From NCBI RefSeq assembly GCF_901538355.1, contig NZ_LR593887.1:3262920-3326919 (forward strand): a stretch of 64,000 nt of DNA, read 5' to 3'. Source of the stretch: Tuwongella immobilis. GTDB taxonomy: Bacteria > Planctomycetota > Planctomycetia > Gemmatales > Gemmataceae. Position 1 is the stretch's first letter. Every line of letters begins with the position of its first letter. The notes under the pieces are model-generated. The model saw only the letters and a program-made list of their open reading frames with translations, made no database searches and was not told where the DNA came from. The position numbers were made by a program, and so were the translations under genes. This document shows, piece by piece, positions 3,736 through 62,305 of this stretch.

Positions 3736-4668
3736 TTAGCGTTTTGGGGGCTGAATGACCTGCGAGAAATCGAGGCCATTTGGTCCCAACGCCCGATCCA
3801 GCAGCTCAATCCGACCTTGCGACTTCATCCGCGTCAGAAATTGCCCCATTTCTTGCCACCAAATCGCTTCCAAAATCCGGGGATTCTCCGCCCGCAATCG
3901 GTGGTACTGCTCCACTCGCTGGAGAAATGCCCGTGCCTCGGCGGTGGCCAGTGTCAATTGTTCGGCTTGGTAGGCATCCGCAAGTTGTTTCTGCCGAAAG
4001 ACTTCCGACTGCGCAAATCGCAACCGCACATCCGCTTCCTGGCGGGCACGATACTCCTGAGTCCGTATGCTGGTTTGGGCCCGATTGACATCATCAAATG
4101 CCGCTTTGACTTCATCTGGCGGCGCGAGGTAATTCACACTGGCCTGCTGAACTTGGATTCCGAGTTGGAATGGCTCAATCCGGCTGGGCAGTTCCGCCAT
4201 CACCCAGCGGGGCAACTCGACATTCCCGGTCAACAGCGCGGAATCGACATCTTGCGACGCAACCCATTCCGCCATCAGCGATTCGGCAGCGCGGGCCACC
4301 AGCAAATCGGCCTGATCTCGGTGCCGAAGATAATCGAGCAATCCCTCGGGTGTCGAGTCGATCGAGTATTCGATTGACAGTTGAGCTTGGATTAAATTTT
4401 GGTCGGCTGTGAGCAACGGTCCCACCGCGGGATTGGGGTCGTTCGGCAATGGTCGTTGCCCGACCAAGAGATTCCGAACCGTCGCCACCTGAATGCGATC
4501 CACGCGATCCACACCCCAGGGAATGGCCCAGTGCAACCCCGGCTGCCAAATATCGACGATTGCCCCAAAGCGACGCACAATCGCTTGCTCTTCCGGGCGA
4601 ACTTGGGTCAGCCCCAAGATGACGCTGAGGCTGATGAGGATGCCGACAATCCAGCGAATCCATCTCAT
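3736..4668 (-). CDS. hflK: HflK-like SPFH-domain membrane protein
   Basis: HflK and HflC are inner-membrane SPFH proteins that form a periplasmic cage around the FtsH protease and limit its access to membrane substrates. This 310-residue homologue has one N-terminal membrane helix (residues 6-22), then an SPFH domain with EEQAIVRRFG, QPGLHWAIPW, and the HflK-specific PPDEVKAAFDDV segment. A charged helical region (about 205-255) is predicted to be coiled coil. It is shorter than E. coli HflK (about 419 residues) and lacks the long Gly-rich cytoplasmic N-terminus. Its ATG overlaps the stop of the hflC-like gene by 4 bases (ATGA), so the two are translationally coupled. It is the last gene of a three-gene minus-strand operon. 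Confidence 0.85.
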   Translation of the reverse strand: MRWIRWIVGILISLSVILGLTQVRPEEQAIVRRFGAIVDIWQPGLHWAIPWGVDRVDRIQVATVRNLLVGQRPLPNDPNPAVGPLLTADQNLIQAQLSIEYSIDSTPEGLLDYLRHRDQADLLVARAAESLMAEWVASQDVDSALLTGNVELPRWVMAELPSRIEPFQLGIQVQQASVNYLAPPDEVKAAFDDVNRAQTSIRTQEYRARQEADVRLRFAQSEVFRQKQLADAYQAEQLTLATAEARAFLQRVEQYHRLRAENPRILEAIWWQEMGQFLTRMKSQGRIELLDRALGPNGLDFSQVIQPPKR

Positions 4669-5669
4669 GGTTTTGCGTCCGATTGAGGCATTTGCGGCGG
4701 TTTGGGAATCGTGGGCGGTTTCAGAAATAAGTCAAACCAAGGATGTTGGGTGGATAGCAGCAGCATGTCGCGGCTCTCCGAAATCATACTCTGATACGAT
4801 TTCAACTTTTGCAAGAACGTGTAAAACTCCCGGTCTTGAGCGTGGGCCTGATTGCGGATCGCATCGGCTTGGGCATCCGCTTCCCCTTCGAGGCGTTGAC
4901 GTTCGGCCTTGGCGGTTGCTTCCAATTTGCGGGCATCGCGTTCGGCGGTGCTGCTGATTTCGGTGGCTTTTTGGCGGCCTTCGCTTTCATATTCGGCGAC
5001 TTTTCGGGCACGTTCGCTGCGAATGCGCTCTGCGATGCTGGTCCGCACCGCCTCGGGAAAGTTCACTCGCCGCAGTCGCACGTCCAAAATTTCGATGCCG
5101 TAATCTTCGCGTGCAATCGCCGCCAGTCGCTCGGTCCCGGCTCCCGCACCACCGCGCACATTCTCCAACCCAAGCCATTGTCGCCGAAAGGCTTCGGCAC
5201 GCTCGGCAGTTTCGACGGGATTCGCCAAGCGGATCAGTTCATCCAGCGGAATGTTGCTCATGACCGCCGCCAATCGACCGTTGAGTCGTGGAGCGAGCAG
5301 CCGCCGCGCCTGTTCGGGAGTGCCGACGGTACGAATGAAGCGATCGACCGCCGCCTTGTCGGGAATCCGCCAGCAGACGAATCCTTCCACCGCGAGGGTC
5401 TTGTCCACGGTGCGGTTCTCACGATCCAACGTCAGCGTCTCCAACGGTGGCAAGTCGAGCAGATGCACGCGGCGATCCAACCGCCGAACCGAATCAATCG
5501 GCCAAGGAAGTTTCCAATGCAGCCCCGCTTCGGTCGAGCCGTCGAAAATCGCAATCGGTGAGCCGAATCGGGTCACATAGGCGAATTCAGTTTGGTCGAC
5601 CGAAAAAAACGAGGTCACCGCCGTTATCGGTACGACGATGAGTATTGCGAGAATCAGCCAGAAACGCAT
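4665..5669 (-). CDS. hflC: HflC-like SPFH-domain membrane protein
   Basis: This is the HflC partner of the HflKC cage. The 334-residue product matches HflC length. It has one N-terminal helix (residues 3-22), an SPFH domain with TEFAYVTRFG and EAGLHWKLPWPIDS, the YGIEILDVRLRRVNFPEAV segment, then a long coiled coil rich in Glu, Arg and Ala (about 205-270) with the EGEADAQADAI motif, and the DREFYTFLQKLKSYQSMI segment typical of HflC. It ends with a Pro-rich tail. It lies 12 bases downstream of the ATPase-SPFH fusion gene and overlaps hflK by 4 bases, so the three are almost certainly one transcript. Confidence 0.88.
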   Translation of the reverse strand: MRFWLILAILIVVPITAVTSFFSVDQTEFAYVTRFGSPIAIFDGSTEAGLHWKLPWPIDSVRRLDRRVHLLDLPPLETLTLDRENRTVDKTLAVEGFVCWRIPDKAAVDRFIRTVGTPEQARRLLAPRLNGRLAAVMSNIPLDELIRLANPVETAERAEAFRRQWLGLENVRGGAGAGTERLAAIAREDYGIEILDVRLRRVNFPEAVRTSIAERIRSERARKVAEYESEGRQKATEISSTAERDARKLEATAKAERQRLEGEADAQADAIRNQAHAQDREFYTFLQKLKSYQSMISESRDMLLLSTQHPWFDLFLKPPTIPKPPQMPQSDAKP

Positions 5670-5681
5670 CGCAATTCCCTC

Positions 5682-8600
5682 TCACGGGTTGGGGCGGATC
5701 GTCGTCGAATCGCTGGGAATGACCATTGCGGGTATGGCGGGTGGGCCGGGCAACGGCGCGGGAATTCCACCCAGATTCGGGCTTGCGGGATCGAGAATCC
5801 ACAGCGTTCGTTTCCCGGGAATTTGCATGGCATCAATGAGGAGTTTGTCTCGCCGCTGCAAGACGCGCACCAATGCCTCGCTTCCCAGACGGAATAGCGT
5901 CAATTGCCCACGAATTTGCCGTTGCTGTTCGCGGTGAATCTGCCATCCCATCCAGCGGATTCCTGGAGCAATTCCCGCATCTGGTCCGCTCATTGCCTGG
6001 AGCAATCCGGCAATGTCTTCCGCACGCGGGATTGTTGTGCGCGATTGCTTCCATGCCAGGAACGCATCCCGCACCGCTGTTGCGTCGGTGACTCGCTCGA
6101 AGGACGTCGCCTCCGCTGCACGGGTGAGCGACATCGACGATTCCAACGCTTTGCCGCGTGTGCGAATCGATTCGGCCTTCGCATCGTTCAAGGATCGATC
6201 CCGCGACTGAATCGCGCGGGCGACTTCGTGGTATGCTGGCACCACTTCTTGCGGCGGGTGCAGATCGTGCAGTGTGACCCCATCCAGTTGAATTCCCAGG
6301 CCACCTTCCACAATTCGGTCGCAGACTCGTTGGAGTTTTTTCGTCACTTCGTCTTGGATGGCCGAGCGTTCGACGGTGAGGATTTCCAGGAAGGCACGAC
6401 TCGCGATCGATTCACGCAAAATGCTCTCTGTTTGAGCACGAATCATCCCTTCGGGGTCGGTGCTGGCTTGGCGGAATTGCAGCGGGTCATGGATGGTAAA
6501 CCGAACCGTGGCCAGGAGTTCCACCAACCCACCATCGCCGGTGATTAACACCGATTCTTCGGGAATGCGCTGCGTGCCGGCTTGATGCACACTTGCCCAA
6601 GTGAGTTCCGCCCCGGCGGCGCTACTGCGATCGAACATCGTCGTTGCAGACCGGCCCAGCATTTCGGGACTGCGAAAGCCGATCTCGACGATCTGAATTC
6701 GATCGATGGCGATGCGATCGAGTTGTTCGATTGGCCACGGATAGCGCATGCTCAACCCTGGCGGAAGCACCGTCACGACTTCGCCAAAGCGTTTGACAAT
6801 CCCCGCTTCGCCCGGTTGAATGATGACAATTCCGGAAACCAGCCACACGCCCAAGCCAATGCTGCCGAGCATTGCCAGCGAGCGGGGCCAATCATGCAGT
6901 CGATCGTGAAGCCAATCGCCAAAATTCGTTCCTTGCGATGACCACCGCTCGATGGTTTGGCGGATTCGCGTGGCGGGAATCGCTTCGGGGAGCATTCGCC
7001 GCTCGAACATCAACAGCCGCATGGAGTTCAGCAGCACCAGCAGCGACCCGAGCTGGTGGTAAATCGCCGCCATCAGTGGCCCGCGCTCGAACCATTCCGG
7101 CGACCAGGCGAGCATTGGCCAAATCCAGGCAATCAGCGCGATTCCGACGAAATTCACGCCGAAACCGAAAATGAGGATATTTTGCCGCATGATTCGCAGC
7201 ATTTGCCGCGACAGCCGAATGAGAAACGGCAGCGGTCGCAGCGGTTCGCTCATCATCAACAGATCGCCGGACTCGACGACCAGATCGGTGCCGCCGACCG
7301 CGATGCCGATACTCGCTTTCGCAAGCGCTGGGGCATCGTTGATGCCATCGCCGATCATCATCACGGTGCGCGGCGGTTGATTCGGTTCGGTTTCCGCCGC
7401 AAGTCGGTCGATTTGCTCCACTTTTTGCTGCGGCCAAAGTTCGGCATGCACGCGAACGCCGGGAGGTAATTGTCGAACGATTGCATCGGCGACGGCTTGA
7501 CGATCGCCGGAGAGCATGGCGATTTCGCGGACTCCCAGTTGCTGCAAATCGGCTACCACCCCCGCCGCTTCCGGGCGAAGTCGGTCGCTGAGGCCCAGCG
7601 CGCCGAGCAAGACTTTTTCGCCGGCAATCAATACGGCGGTTTGCCCGGATTCGTCCATCTGCTGCAGGATGCGGCTGAACGATTCCGGGATCGGTACGCC
7701 GCGTTCTTGCAGCCAGCGACGCGAGCCGACCAGAATCGTTCCGGTTTGGCCGATGGCGAGAATTCCGCCGCCTGGATATGCTTCCAATCGCTTAATCGGT
7801 CGCAGCGACAACTGCGCGGATTTTGCAGCCGACAGGATCGCTCGGGCAATCGGGTGTTCGCTCCCCTGCTCGGCAGTCGCGGCCAAGGTGAGCAGTTCGT
7901 CGGGGCTGGTTCCTTGAAGTGGATAACGATCGACGACTTCGAGCTTGCCTTCGGTGAGCGTGCCGGTTTTATCGAATGCGACGACATTCACTTGGGCGAT
8001 CCGCTCGAATGCAGCCACCCGCCGCACCAGTACCCCCGTCCCGGCGAGTCGCCCCAAGGTGGCAATCACCGCGGCAGGTGTGGCCAAGACCAATGCACAC
8101 GGGCAAGCTACCACCAGCACCGAAAGAACCGGGTAGATGCTGACGCGAATGGCACTGCCCAGCCGAAGTCGCTCCGTCTCGGGGCGGAACGGCCCCATGT
8201 ATGCCAACAAACTCACCAGAAATGTCGCGGCGGCGAGTGCCAGCACAATCGGCAAAAACAGTCGCGCATAGCGATCCGCGATGCGTTCCAGCGTCGCTTT
8301 TTCTTGCAAGGCGCGGCCGGTGAGTTCGATCACTCGCCCCGCGACGGTATCCTTCGCCAAGTGTGTCGCTTCAATCGTCAGCGCACCGAGTTGATTGATA
8401 CTCCCGGCAAGAACCGCATCACCGGGCCGTTTATCGACCGGAACCGATTCCCCTGTCAGCGCCTTGACATCGACGGATGAGGTGCCTTGCCGAATGATTC
8501 CATCAACCGGAACTTTCCCACCGGGTTTCACCACCACGGTATCGCCGACTTGGAGTTCATCGACAAAGACCCGTTCTTCGGTGCCATCGCGGAGCCGCCA

Positions 8601-9059
8601 ACAGCGTTTCGGGAAGAGCTCAACGAGTCGGCCGACAGATCGCTGGGTTCGCTCGAATACCACCGCCTCGAGACATTCGCCGATAAGCCCGATGAGGACC
8701 ACTTCGGCGGCGACGAGCGGTTCACCGACCAAAATCGCGGCAATGCAGGCAATCGCGAGCGCAAGATCCGCACCGAACCGCCCGTCGAGCAGCGAATCGA
8801 TCGAGCCATAGAGCACGCGAGCGCCGCCGAGAATCGCCGCCCAGAGCGCGAAGCGATAGCCCAGAATCGAGCGATCCCAAACCGGAAGCTCCCACCCGTT
8901 TTGGTTGAGCCACCCGGTGAGCAACGGCCCGAGATCCGCGCCAACCAGCAACGTCAACAAGGCGGTGAATGCGTATAGCGGAAGATGATTGGGGGAGTCG
9001 AATATCGTCTCGGTGGCGAGCCGTTCACGATGCATGGAGCATGCCCCCAAAATTCGCAA
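5682..9059 (-). CDS. P1B-type metal-transporting ATPase fused to an SPFH (HflK-like) domain
   Basis: One uninterrupted 1125-residue frame holds two modules. Residues 1-690 are a heavy-metal P-type ATPase: eight likely membrane helices, TGES actuator motif at 202-205, CPC ion site in helix 6 (319-321), phosphorylation Asp363 in DKTGTLTEG, HP motif at 402-403 and GDGINDAP at 570-577. No N-terminal metal-binding CxxC domain is present. The last helix reads YHQLGSLLVLLNSMRLL, with His668 where zinc pumps usually have Asp, so the ion cannot be assigned. Residues about 727-747 form another helix, followed by an SPFH domain (EAGIVKRFG, LPPGLSMRYPWPIEQLDR) and a helical tail to 1125. This half resembles HflK. 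Downstream are hflC and hflK homologues. An alternative start is Met9. Confidence 0.9.
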   Translation of the reverse strand: MRILGACSMHRERLATETIFDSPNHLPLYAFTALLTLLVGADLGPLLTGWLNQNGWELPVWDRSILGYRFALWAAILGGARVLYGSIDSLLDGRFGADLALAIACIAAILVGEPLVAAEVVLIGLIGECLEAVVFERTQRSVGRLVELFPKRCWRLRDGTEERVFVDELQVGDTVVVKPGGKVPVDGIIRQGTSSVDVKALTGESVPVDKRPGDAVLAGSINQLGALTIEATHLAKDTVAGRVIELTGRALQEKATLERIADRYARLFLPIVLALAAATFLVSLLAYMGPFRPETERLRLGSAIRVSIYPVLSVLVVACPCALVLATPAAVIATLGRLAGTGVLVRRVAAFERIAQVNVVAFDKTGTLTEGKLEVVDRYPLQGTSPDELLTLAATAEQGSEHPIARAILSAAKSAQLSLRPIKRLEAYPGGGILAIGQTGTILVGSRRWLQERGVPIPESFSRILQQMDESGQTAVLIAGEKVLLGALGLSDRLRPEAAGVVADLQQLGVREIAMLSGDRQAVADAIVRQLPPGVRVHAELWPQQKVEQIDRLAAETEPNQPPRTVMMIGDGINDAPALAKASIGIAVGGTDLVVESGDLLMMSEPLRPLPFLIRLSRQMLRIMRQNILIFGFGVNFVGIALIAWIWPMLAWSPEWFERGPLMAAIYHQLGSLLVLLNSMRLLMFERRMLPEAIPATRIRQTIERWSSQGTNFGDWLHDRLHDWPRSLAMLGSIGLGVWLVSGIVIIQPGEAGIVKRFGEVVTVLPPGLSMRYPWPIEQLDRIAIDRIQIVEIGFRSPEMLGRSATTMFDRSSAAGAELTWASVHQAGTQRIPEESVLITGDGGLVELLATVRFTIHDPLQFRQASTDPEGMIRAQTESILRESIASRAFLEILTVERSAIQDEVTKKLQRVCDRIVEGGLGIQLDGVTLHDLHPPQEVVPAYHEVARAIQSRDRSLNDAKAESIRTRGKALESSMSLTRAAEATSFERVTDATAVRDAFLAWKQSRTTIPRAEDIAGLLQAMSGPDAGIAPGIRWMGWQIHREQQRQIRGQLTLFRLGSEALVRVLQRRDKLLIDAMQIPGKRTLWILDPASPNLGGIPAPLPGPPAIPAMVIPSDSTTIRPNP

Positions 9060-9340
9060 CAGGATGACGAATCAGCGGATACAATGATTGTACAAAGTCC
9101 GACGCATGCTGCTAGAGAACGCAATCCAGAAATGGTGGACCCGAACGGGGAGCGAATCGCTTGGTCTGAGTCTCGCTTTGCAATTCTTCTGGGATCGTGG
9201 GCGAATGCTTGTCCAGACAGAATTGGGGATCTATAAGTAGGTTGACTTCAAAGGTGTCATAGAAGGTGAAGTAGGCCGTGCCGCTCGCAAAGTTGACCGG
9301 CCCCCCTACCTCGGAACCGCCTGGGTAAGGATGATTGATC

Positions 9341-9976
9341 GTGAACGCACCTGCAACTCCGTCTGATTTGTCAGATCTCTCCGATGGTGCCGACGGAACC
9401 GTCTTCAATGGTACGGTCGATTTGCCGCGAATTCGCCGAGCGGTTCGGGAAATTCTGATTGCAGTCGGCGAAGATCCAGACCGCGAAGGTTTGCTGGAAA
9501 CGCCGGATCGTGTGGCTCGCATGTATGCCGAGATTTTCTCCGGGCTGCATGTCGATCCGCGCGTGCATCTGAAGCGCACCTTCACGCAAAAGCACGATGA
9601 AATGGTGTTGGTGAAGGATATCGAATTTTCCAGCATGTGCGAGCATCACCTGCTGCCGTTCATGGGCAAGGCGCATTTGGCCTATCTGCCCAACGGCCAA
9701 GTCGTTGGCATCAGCAAGCTGGCTCGAATCGTCGATATGGTCGCCCGTCGCCCGCAAGTGCAAGAACGCATGACCGAGGAACTGGCCGATCTGATGATGA
9801 CCGAACTGAATGCCCGTGGCTGTGGGGTCATTCTGGAAGCGGCGCACACCTGCATGAGCATTCGCGGCGTGCATAAGCCCGGTGCCATGACCATGACTAG
9901 CGCCATGCGAGGAGCGTTCCTCGCCTCCGCAACCCGTGCCGAACTCATGGCCCTGATCTTCTCAACCCGCCGATAA
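9341..9976 (+). CDS. folE: GTP cyclohydrolase I
   Basis: FolE converts GTP to 7,8-dihydroneopterin triphosphate, the first step of folate synthesis. The 211-residue product has the zinc ligands in CEHHLLPF and in [10 protein letters not shown], plus the [13 protein letters not shown] and [15 protein letters not shown] segments of the active-site region. The C-terminus is complete. The frame extends to a TTG at 9335, but the AAGGA ribosome site at 9327-9331 lies 9 bases before the GTG at 9341 and only 3 before the TTG, so GTG was chosen. It stands alone, divergent from the metal ATPase operon, with a 281-base intergenic region holding no clear promoter or riboswitch. Confidence 0.95.
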
Positions 9977-60265: not shown

Positions 60266-62305
60266 TCAATCGCGATTTTCGCTCGCCGATGCCGCGACAC
60301 CATTGCGGGATTGTTCGGATCCATTCGATGATTGTGGACGCTTTTGAAGAATCCGTTCCAGATCAATCTCACTTAATTCTTCTTGTTCCATGAGCGCATC
60401 AACCAATGCTTCCAGCTCACGTCGATGCTGCGTCATCAATTCAAAGGCGCGCTCGTCGGCCTCGCGAAGGATGCGCATCACTTCCTCATCGATGAGCGAT
60501 GCGGTTCCTTCGCTGAAATCGCGGGCTTCCTGGATTTCCTTGCCCAGAAACACGTGCTCCTCGCCGATCCGCAGCGAGATTGGGCCGATTCGCTGGCTCA
60601 TCCCATATTGGGCCACCATCGCGCGGGCGATTCGGGTCGCCTGCTTGAGATCGTTGGAATGGCCCGCGAACGCCTGTTGATACATCAGCCGATCCGCGGC
60701 CCGCCCGCCCATGATGAACACCAACTGAGCGCGGAAAAAATCTGCCCCATAATGATGCCGATCTTCGTCAATCGCGGGGATATTCACGCCCAATGCTTGA
60801 CCACGGGGAATGATCGAAACGCGGCTGGGGGGCATCGCTTCAGGCTGGAACCACGACGCAATCGCATGCCCGGCTTCGTGAACGGCGATTTGCCGTTTGT
60901 TTTCTTGACTGAGAATCTCCTCGCGTTTCGGCCCCAGTCGAACTCGATCGGCCGCACGCTCGAAATCGGCATTTGTGATCTTTTCTTGATTGGCACGGGT
61001 GGCTAACAGGGCCGCCTCATTTGCCAGATTTCGCAGATCCGCACCCGTCATGCCGGTCATTTGCTTGGCGATCGATTCCAAATCCACATCATCGGCTAAC
61101 GGTTTATTCCGAACGTGAACTTTCAGAATCTCCAATCGACCTTTCCAGGTGGGCCGATCAATCGTGATATGTCGATCGAATCGCCCCGGTCGCAACAGGG
61201 CCGAATCCAACACATCGGGGCGATTGGTGGCGGCTAACACAATGACCGTTTCATTCGGTGTGAACCCATCCATCTCGCTCAAAATCTGATTGAGGGTCTG
61301 TTCGCGTTCATCCGAGCCGCCGCCCACGCCCGCACCACGCATCCGACCGACGGCATCAATTTCGTCGATAAACAGCAGGCAAGGAGCATTCTCTTTGGCA
61401 TTGCGGAACAGATCCCGAACGCGACTTGCCCCCACGCCAACGAACATCTGAATAAATTCCGAGCCGTTGACCGAGAAAAACGGAACCCCTGCTTCACCGG
61501 CAACCGCTCGGGCGAGGAGCGTCTTGCCAGTGCCCGGCGGCCCAACTAACAACACACCTTTGGGAATTTCCGCGCCGAGTTTTTCAAATCGTTGCGGTTC
61601 ACGCAGATATTCGACAATCTCTTGTAATTCTGCTTTGGCATTATCCATCCCGGCCACATCTTTGAACGTGGAACGGCCGCTTTCTTCGGTCTTCTGATAG
61701 CGCTTGGCGGGGGATTTTGTGAACGTATTGGCCACATTTCCGCCCATCGAATCCCGCATTCGAGGCAGAATAAACAGAAATAGGAACAATAACAGCACCG
61801 CTGTCGAAATCAGAATCATAATCACAAAGCGGCCCCATTCGGAGTAATCCGCTTGTTGATCGATGATTAATTCCGGGACTTCGGGGTGCGCTTTGCGATA
61901 GGTTTCATCCAATGCGAGTAATTCGCGGAGAAACGGATATTGGTTTTCTCCCGGCGGCAACAACACTCGGAATCGGCCTTGTTCGATCTTAAATTCTTTG
62001 GCCAACGCGCTGGCGTCGTCGCGCAATTTGCCCAGCAAATCGACGTTGCCTCGGACATCGAGCCGCTCGACCTCACCATTTTGAATGAGCGTCTGTAATT
62101 GCGTAAATGGAATCACACGCGGCGTGCGAAGTTGAGAAAAGACGAAAAATGCAATAAACGCCAATCCCAAGGAGATGAATAGCACAAATTGAAAGAGGTT
62201 CCCCCGCGGTGGCACGGGAGTTCCCCCCCAACCCGGATCCCGTTGCGGCTTCTTCGGGTCATTGTCTTGGGGACGATTCGACGTTGGTTCAGGGCTGCTG
62301 GACAT
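60266..62305 (-). CDS. ftsH: ATP-dependent zinc metalloprotease FtsH
   Basis: FtsH is a membrane AAA protease that degrades misfolded membrane proteins and regulators. The 679-residue product has a Pro-rich N-terminus, two membrane helices (about 37-58 and 160-181), the AAA core with Walker A GPPGTGKT, Walker B LLFIDEID, the second-region-of-homology [20 protein letters not shown], and the protease zinc motif HEAGHA. The third zinc ligand and C-terminal coiled coil are present. HflK/HflC homologues lie at 3.7-5.7 kb, not adjacent. The gene follows the DUF1501 gene by 133 bases. Confidence 0.96.

Follow-up and report, generated by a model that had tools for sequence, protein, structure and literature searches.

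An HflK-like SPFH protein fused to a P1B-type metal ATPase in Tuwongella immobilis is one variant of a three-SPFH module with interchangeable metal transporters

We analyzed a window of 64,000 nucleotides from the genome of the planctomycete Tuwongella immobilis (contig NZ_LR593887.1, positions 3,262,920 to 3,326,919) and found that it encodes a P1B-type metal ATPase and an HflK-like SPFH domain as a single protein, in an operon with two further SPFH genes. Our preferred reading, to which we assign a probability of roughly two in three, is that this protein is the transporter-bearing subunit (hereafter SPFH-A) of a three-component SPFH assembly, so that a metal pump would be built into a mixed dome. 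The first-pass annotation of the window had proposed a metal pump within a membrane-scaffold ring and knew of no characterized protein like it. The fusion is real and its three-gene neighborhood fits the proposal, but it is not an isolated case: it is one variant of a module that combines three SPFH proteins with an interchangeable metal transporter.

The gene lies on the minus strand, in a frame that had been taken as coding over its whole length, 5682–9059 (Table 1). This frame is indeed open, but its TTG at 9059 lies too far upstream and translation almost certainly starts at ATG 9035, since the N-termini of relatives (MHRE or MHY) align with this codon and a G-rich stretch directly precedes it. 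Pfam searches placed an E1-E2_ATPase domain (2.5e-50), a HAD hydrolase domain (1.1e-29), and a Band_7 domain (3.4e-20) in this order in one chain. The protein passed the NCBIfam model for heavy-metal P-type ATPases (TIGR01525) with 537.5 bits against a cut-off of 346.25. Its Band_7 domain and SPFH fold place it in the SPFH/Band 7 superfamily; with 121 bits it stayed below the cut-off of the HflK equivalog TIGR01933 (159.4), and it is therefore filed as HflK-like only. The catalytic motifs TGES, CPC, DKTGT, and GDGxND are all present, and they are invariant or nearly so among 29 aligned fused homologues. The domains and motifs thus bear out the earlier description of a complete P1B ATPase and an HflK-like SPFH domain in one frame.

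Table 1 Features of the fused gene and its surroundings; residues are counted from the corrected start, ATG 9035.
Feature	Position in window	Strand	Details
Fused gene: P1B-type ATPase, ninth TM helix, HflK-like SPFH domain	5682..9035	minus	1117 aa, ATG 9035
P1B ATPase part: 8 TM helices, actuator, P and N domains	7008..8990	minus	residues 16-676
TGES actuator motif	8445..8456	minus	residues 194-197
CPC metal motif in TM6	8097..8105	minus	residues 311-313
DKTGT phosphorylation motif	7959..7973	minus	residues 355-359
GDGIND hinge motif	7335..7352	minus	residues 562-567
Linker TM8-TM9, predicted cytoplasmic	6891..7007	minus	residues 677-715; helix order from the model, side from P1B topology
Ninth TM helix, predicted to lead the chain to the periplasm	6822..6890	minus	about residues 716-738
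SPFH/Band 7 domain, HflK-like	6171..6824	minus	
Long coiled-coil helices C-terminal to the SPFH domain, resembling HflK	5856..6251	minus	
hflC-like SPFH gene	4665..5669	minus	12 bp after fused gene; TIGR01932 above cut-off
hflK-like SPFH gene	3736..4668	minus	4-bp overlap with hflC-like gene
GTP cyclohydrolase I gene (folE-like)	9335-9976	plus	divergent from operon
ftsH, one of two full-length copies	60368-62149	minus	same window

An AlphaFold2 model of the whole chain (pLDDT 77.7) runs from the P1B helices through a ninth helix into the SPFH strands and then into long coiled-coil helices. This ninth helix corresponds to an extra membrane helix anticipated near residue 735; it lies at 729–747 of the longer frame, about 716–733 from ATG 9035. 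The predicted ATPase part matches P1B structures, and for the tail modelled alone (pLDDT 79.5) the best match was HflK of the HflK/C-FtsH structures (Foldseek, E 9.6e-17). Because the P1B helices are even in number, the ATPase part should end in the cytoplasm; with the ninth helix crossing the membrane, the SPFH domain and coiled coil should then be periplasmic, as in E. coli HflK.

That an assembly or annotation artefact joined two separate genes is hardly credible. The host genome is a single 6.69-Mb contig, and codon-position GC is even across the ATPase/SPFH junction. The two parts run uninterrupted in one frame at 45 of 45 planctomycete loci from several families, the window included; these loci were picked by their match to the fused protein, so they establish that it exists and is widespread but do not measure how frequent it is. 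The 45 loci, from independent genomes, together with the single-contig genome, rule out an assembly frameshift, one of the two objections raised beforehand. The other, that close relatives might always carry two genes, fails as well: a single chain is found in the Gemmataceae and in several other Planctomycetia. Separate P1B and SPFH genes do stand side by side in more distant Planctomycetota and in some lineages within Planctomycetia, an arrangement that supports a functional link between the two proteins. Some matches to the fused protein fall in shorter frames, at contig edges. At one Gemmatales locus (L149:4241-7532, BPJP01000005.1), a local frameshift within the ATPase portion, either genuine or a sequencing error, splits the gene into two overlapping frames.

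The fused gene is the first of the operon and is followed by the hflC-like and then the hflK-like gene. An hflC-like gene adjoins the fusion at 29 of the 45 loci, in most of which the hflK-like gene is next in line; in 15 genomes where it does not adjoin, both partner genes are found elsewhere. In Gemmataceae, the fusion and this hflC type were both present in 66 genomes, both absent in 7, and discordant in 2 + 2 (Fisher p = 5e-7, from a tally made by hand across related, non-independent genomes, so that the p-value is a guide only). The remaining three SPFH matches of the T. immobilis genome lie at separate places, no further hflK/hflC pair was seen in that genome, and two full-length ftsH genes are present. 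The operon has no conserved neighbors beyond its own genes, the divergent folE and a convergent TPR gene being absent at the other fused loci. A search for inverted repeats upstream of the fused gene (9036–9340), such as a Zur box, gave none that was convincing.

The broader picture emerged from searching the phylum with an SPFH-A profile and collecting the neighborhoods of the matches; a scan of genome contigs by sequence yielded planctomycete loci only, and evidence from beyond the Planctomycetota comes from plasmids and the literature. The three-SPFH set recurs elsewhere in the Planctomycetota with a partner other than a P1B ATPase at the N-terminus of SPFH-A, the first SPFH protein. At three loci (L170, L171, and L177) this partner is a zinc-type CDF transporter (Pfam 4e-33 to 4e-28) with its HxxxD...HxxxD pair present. 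At 13 loci it is an SO_0444 Cu/Zn efflux permease, detected with its own profile; two of these fusions were tested with NF033936 and scored 9e-110 and 4e-119. The remaining SPFH-A proteins bear unassigned multi-helix extensions, and most of them are accompanied by a P1B ATPase encoded as a gene of its own in the same orientation. Within a batch of loci selected on frame length alone, 18 of the 21 three-SPFH operons that have no fused exporter lie next to a P1B gene, whereas none of the 14 canonical hflK-hflC pairs does (p = 3e-7); nor do any of these 14 pairs adjoin a CDF-SPFH or SO_0444-SPFH gene.

We built quick trees of the SPFH and P1B domains, with SH-aLRT as the only support values. The SPFH tree splits into HflC-type and HflK-type domains (support 100), and the P1B-fused and SO_0444-fused domains group together (93). 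In the P1B tree, the fused proteins form one clade and operon-adjacent P1B genes another, which includes plasmid copies from Burkholderia and Rhizobium; the two join with a support of only 42. The P1B genes of CDF-type operons fall with ZntA, which implies at least two recruitments of P1B genes to SPFH operons. The tree thus does not bear out the idea, which we had considered, that every P1B gene linked to SPFH proteins goes back to one origin.

Genes for HflK-like, HflC-like, SPFH, and P1B proteins also stand in a row on plasmids of Aquibium, Burkholderia, Rhizobium, Klebsiella, and Paraburkholderia. These proteobacterial four-gene modules resemble the T. immobilis operon in composition, their HflK-like protein having an N-terminal extension, but their P1B ATPase is a separate gene. 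On the Aquibium plasmid, a CDF transporter is fused to SPFH-A, the P1B ATPase is ZntA-like, and a peptidylprolyl isomerase gene precedes it. On the Paraburkholderia plasmid, a zinc ABC importer operon is located some 3.5 kb from the module, and a PCu(A)C copper chaperone is encoded between the two.

By published annotation only, the unfused module matches the hmtA operon of Pseudomonas aeruginosa, which likewise holds one P1B ATPase and three HflK/HflC-type SPFH genes; the T. immobilis operon brings the same kinds of protein together, with the pump fused to SPFH-A instead of encoded separately. These P. aeruginosa genes (PA2434-PA2439, comprising hmtA and three genes of the HflK/HflC family) were induced 5.6–14.4-fold in a zinc-depleted mutant (PMC4542158), the PA2438 and PA2439 proteins increased under zinc depletion (PMC11761036), and Zur bound the PA2439 promoter in a study in which excess zinc did not repress hmtA mRNA (PMC8531726). 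A three-SPFH operon of this species, PaFlo5-7, is described in a 2026 study of SPFH proteins (PMC13086221) that does not mention HmtA; judging by gene count and order, it is probably PA2437-PA2439. The SPFH genes were deleted in that study, the text of which shows no metal tests and mentions zinc once, for FtsH. The unfused operon is thus already on record, in pieces. We found no published description of a P1B-SPFH fusion in the literature searched, mostly outside subscription journals, and the same literature also appears to lack any account of the transporter exchange or of the statistical association with P1B genes.

What might such an operon build? The E. coli HflK/HflC complex is a 24-subunit alternating assembly around FtsH. 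The T. immobilis set shares with that complex (7WI3, 9CZ2, 7VHQ) the TM helix, the SPFH1/2 domains with their predicted periplasmic location, the coiled coil, and HflC- and HflK-like partners; it differs in having three SPFH proteins rather than two and, in our proposal, a fused pump in place of the FtsH protease as the enclosed partner. SPFH-A and the HflC-like and HflK-like products would assemble into a mixed dome on the periplasmic side of the membrane, with SPFH-A occupying some or all of the HflK-type positions. Anchored at the dome wall, the P1B pump would carry a transition metal across the membrane, with the cytoplasm on one side and the dome-covered part of the periplasm on the other; it would probably serve to deliver or hand over a scarce or toxic metal in a confined space. 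To go by its title, one solved structure (9ZD2) shows human stomatin, an SPFH protein, in complex with a membrane transporter, aquaporin-1; that eukaryotic association is non-covalent and involves a water channel, whereas the T. immobilis protein is a covalent fusion to a metal pump.

Two other explanations deserve consideration. In one, the three SPFH proteins would cage FtsH as in E. coli, with the pump as an accessory that reports on or supplies zinc to this zinc protease. The HflK/HflC-type character of SPFH-A and its partners would suit such a role, as would a genome with two full ftsH genes, one of them in the window, and no other visible hflK-hflC pair. However, ftsH lies outside the operon, and a canonical hflK-hflC pair and a three-SPFH set can coexist in one genome (G165, loci L178 and L181), which argues for separate roles; the lack of metal-transporter genes beside all 14 canonical pairs also speaks against this explanation, and we consider it unlikely. 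Somewhat less likely still is a loose fusion, in which the pump exports metal by itself, like other efflux ATPases, and the SPFH tail serves only to direct it to a membrane domain and forms no functional dome. The P1B part lacks none of its elements and could function independently, and the three genes are scattered in several genomes; yet they co-occur even where scattered, the full coiled-coil region is retained, and at least two other transporter families are fused at the same SPFH position.

The assembly of a transporter-bearing SPFH-A into a mixed dome would, if correct, give transition metals a periplasmic compartment of their own. The fusion of one SPFH position to three unrelated metal-transporter families points to a concrete function for these proteins, the housing of metal transporters, and so does the recurrent pairing with P1B ATPases in Planctomycetota and Proteobacteria. 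Such a function would also offer a testable reason for the presence of SPFH genes at the P. aeruginosa hmtA locus. Whether there is, more generally, a class of SPFH domes with a metal transporter rather than a protease as cargo, in which P1B, CDF, or SO_0444 transporters are swapped on the HflK-type subunit, is in our estimate an evenly balanced question.

The fused ATPase has the fold and all catalytic motifs of CopA and ZntA, from which its C-terminal SPFH extension sets it apart, and no N-terminal HMA domain was found in it. The TM7/TM8 signature of CopA is YN..P and M..SS and that of ZntA is K and D, as can also be read off the E. coli proteins in our alignment. The fused clade shows N (TM7) and H[QE]xxS (TM8), and in this alignment it matches neither the Cu (P1B-1) nor the Zn (P1B-2) signature; assigning the metal from the TM signatures was therefore abandoned. 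Zn(II) is most likely the metal moved, given the CDF site, the SO_0444 family, the ZntA-like partners, and the Zur-linked relative, with Cu as a possible alternative. As for direction, the CDF and SO_0444 substitutes are exporters, which suggests that metal is pumped out towards the dome. The literature on P. aeruginosa HmtA points the other way: this pump was reported as an importer, a claim that needs confirmation according to a review (PMC10393844).

Several further extensions and neighbors of SPFH-A were observed. A membrane domain that we call UX forms the N-terminal part of four SPFH-A proteins (L172:2843-4744, L173:4774-6999, L174:7293-9395, and L188:5949-8201), and other multi-helix extensions, UY and its relatives, occur at L179:6241-8043, L183:6130-8250, and L236:3913-5805. 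Neither UX nor UY (tested on L179) had a match in Pfam or NCBIfam that would name it. UX shows remote similarity to CDF transporters (hhalign E 4.5e-7, probability 93) and lacks the HxxxD metal-site pair; it is perhaps a degenerate transporter kept as a scaffold, which the similarity can only suggest. UX-type operons also have an ABC-transporter ATPase gene (PF00005) beside hflK or the P1B gene (L173, L174, L175, L201, L215, L217, and L219). Finally, the fused P1B proteins of one family (L106, L107, and L108) have histidine-rich stretches, such as HHDHHDHHHHDHD, within their N-terminal 60 residues, and similar stretches occur in many of the SO_0444-SPFH fusions.
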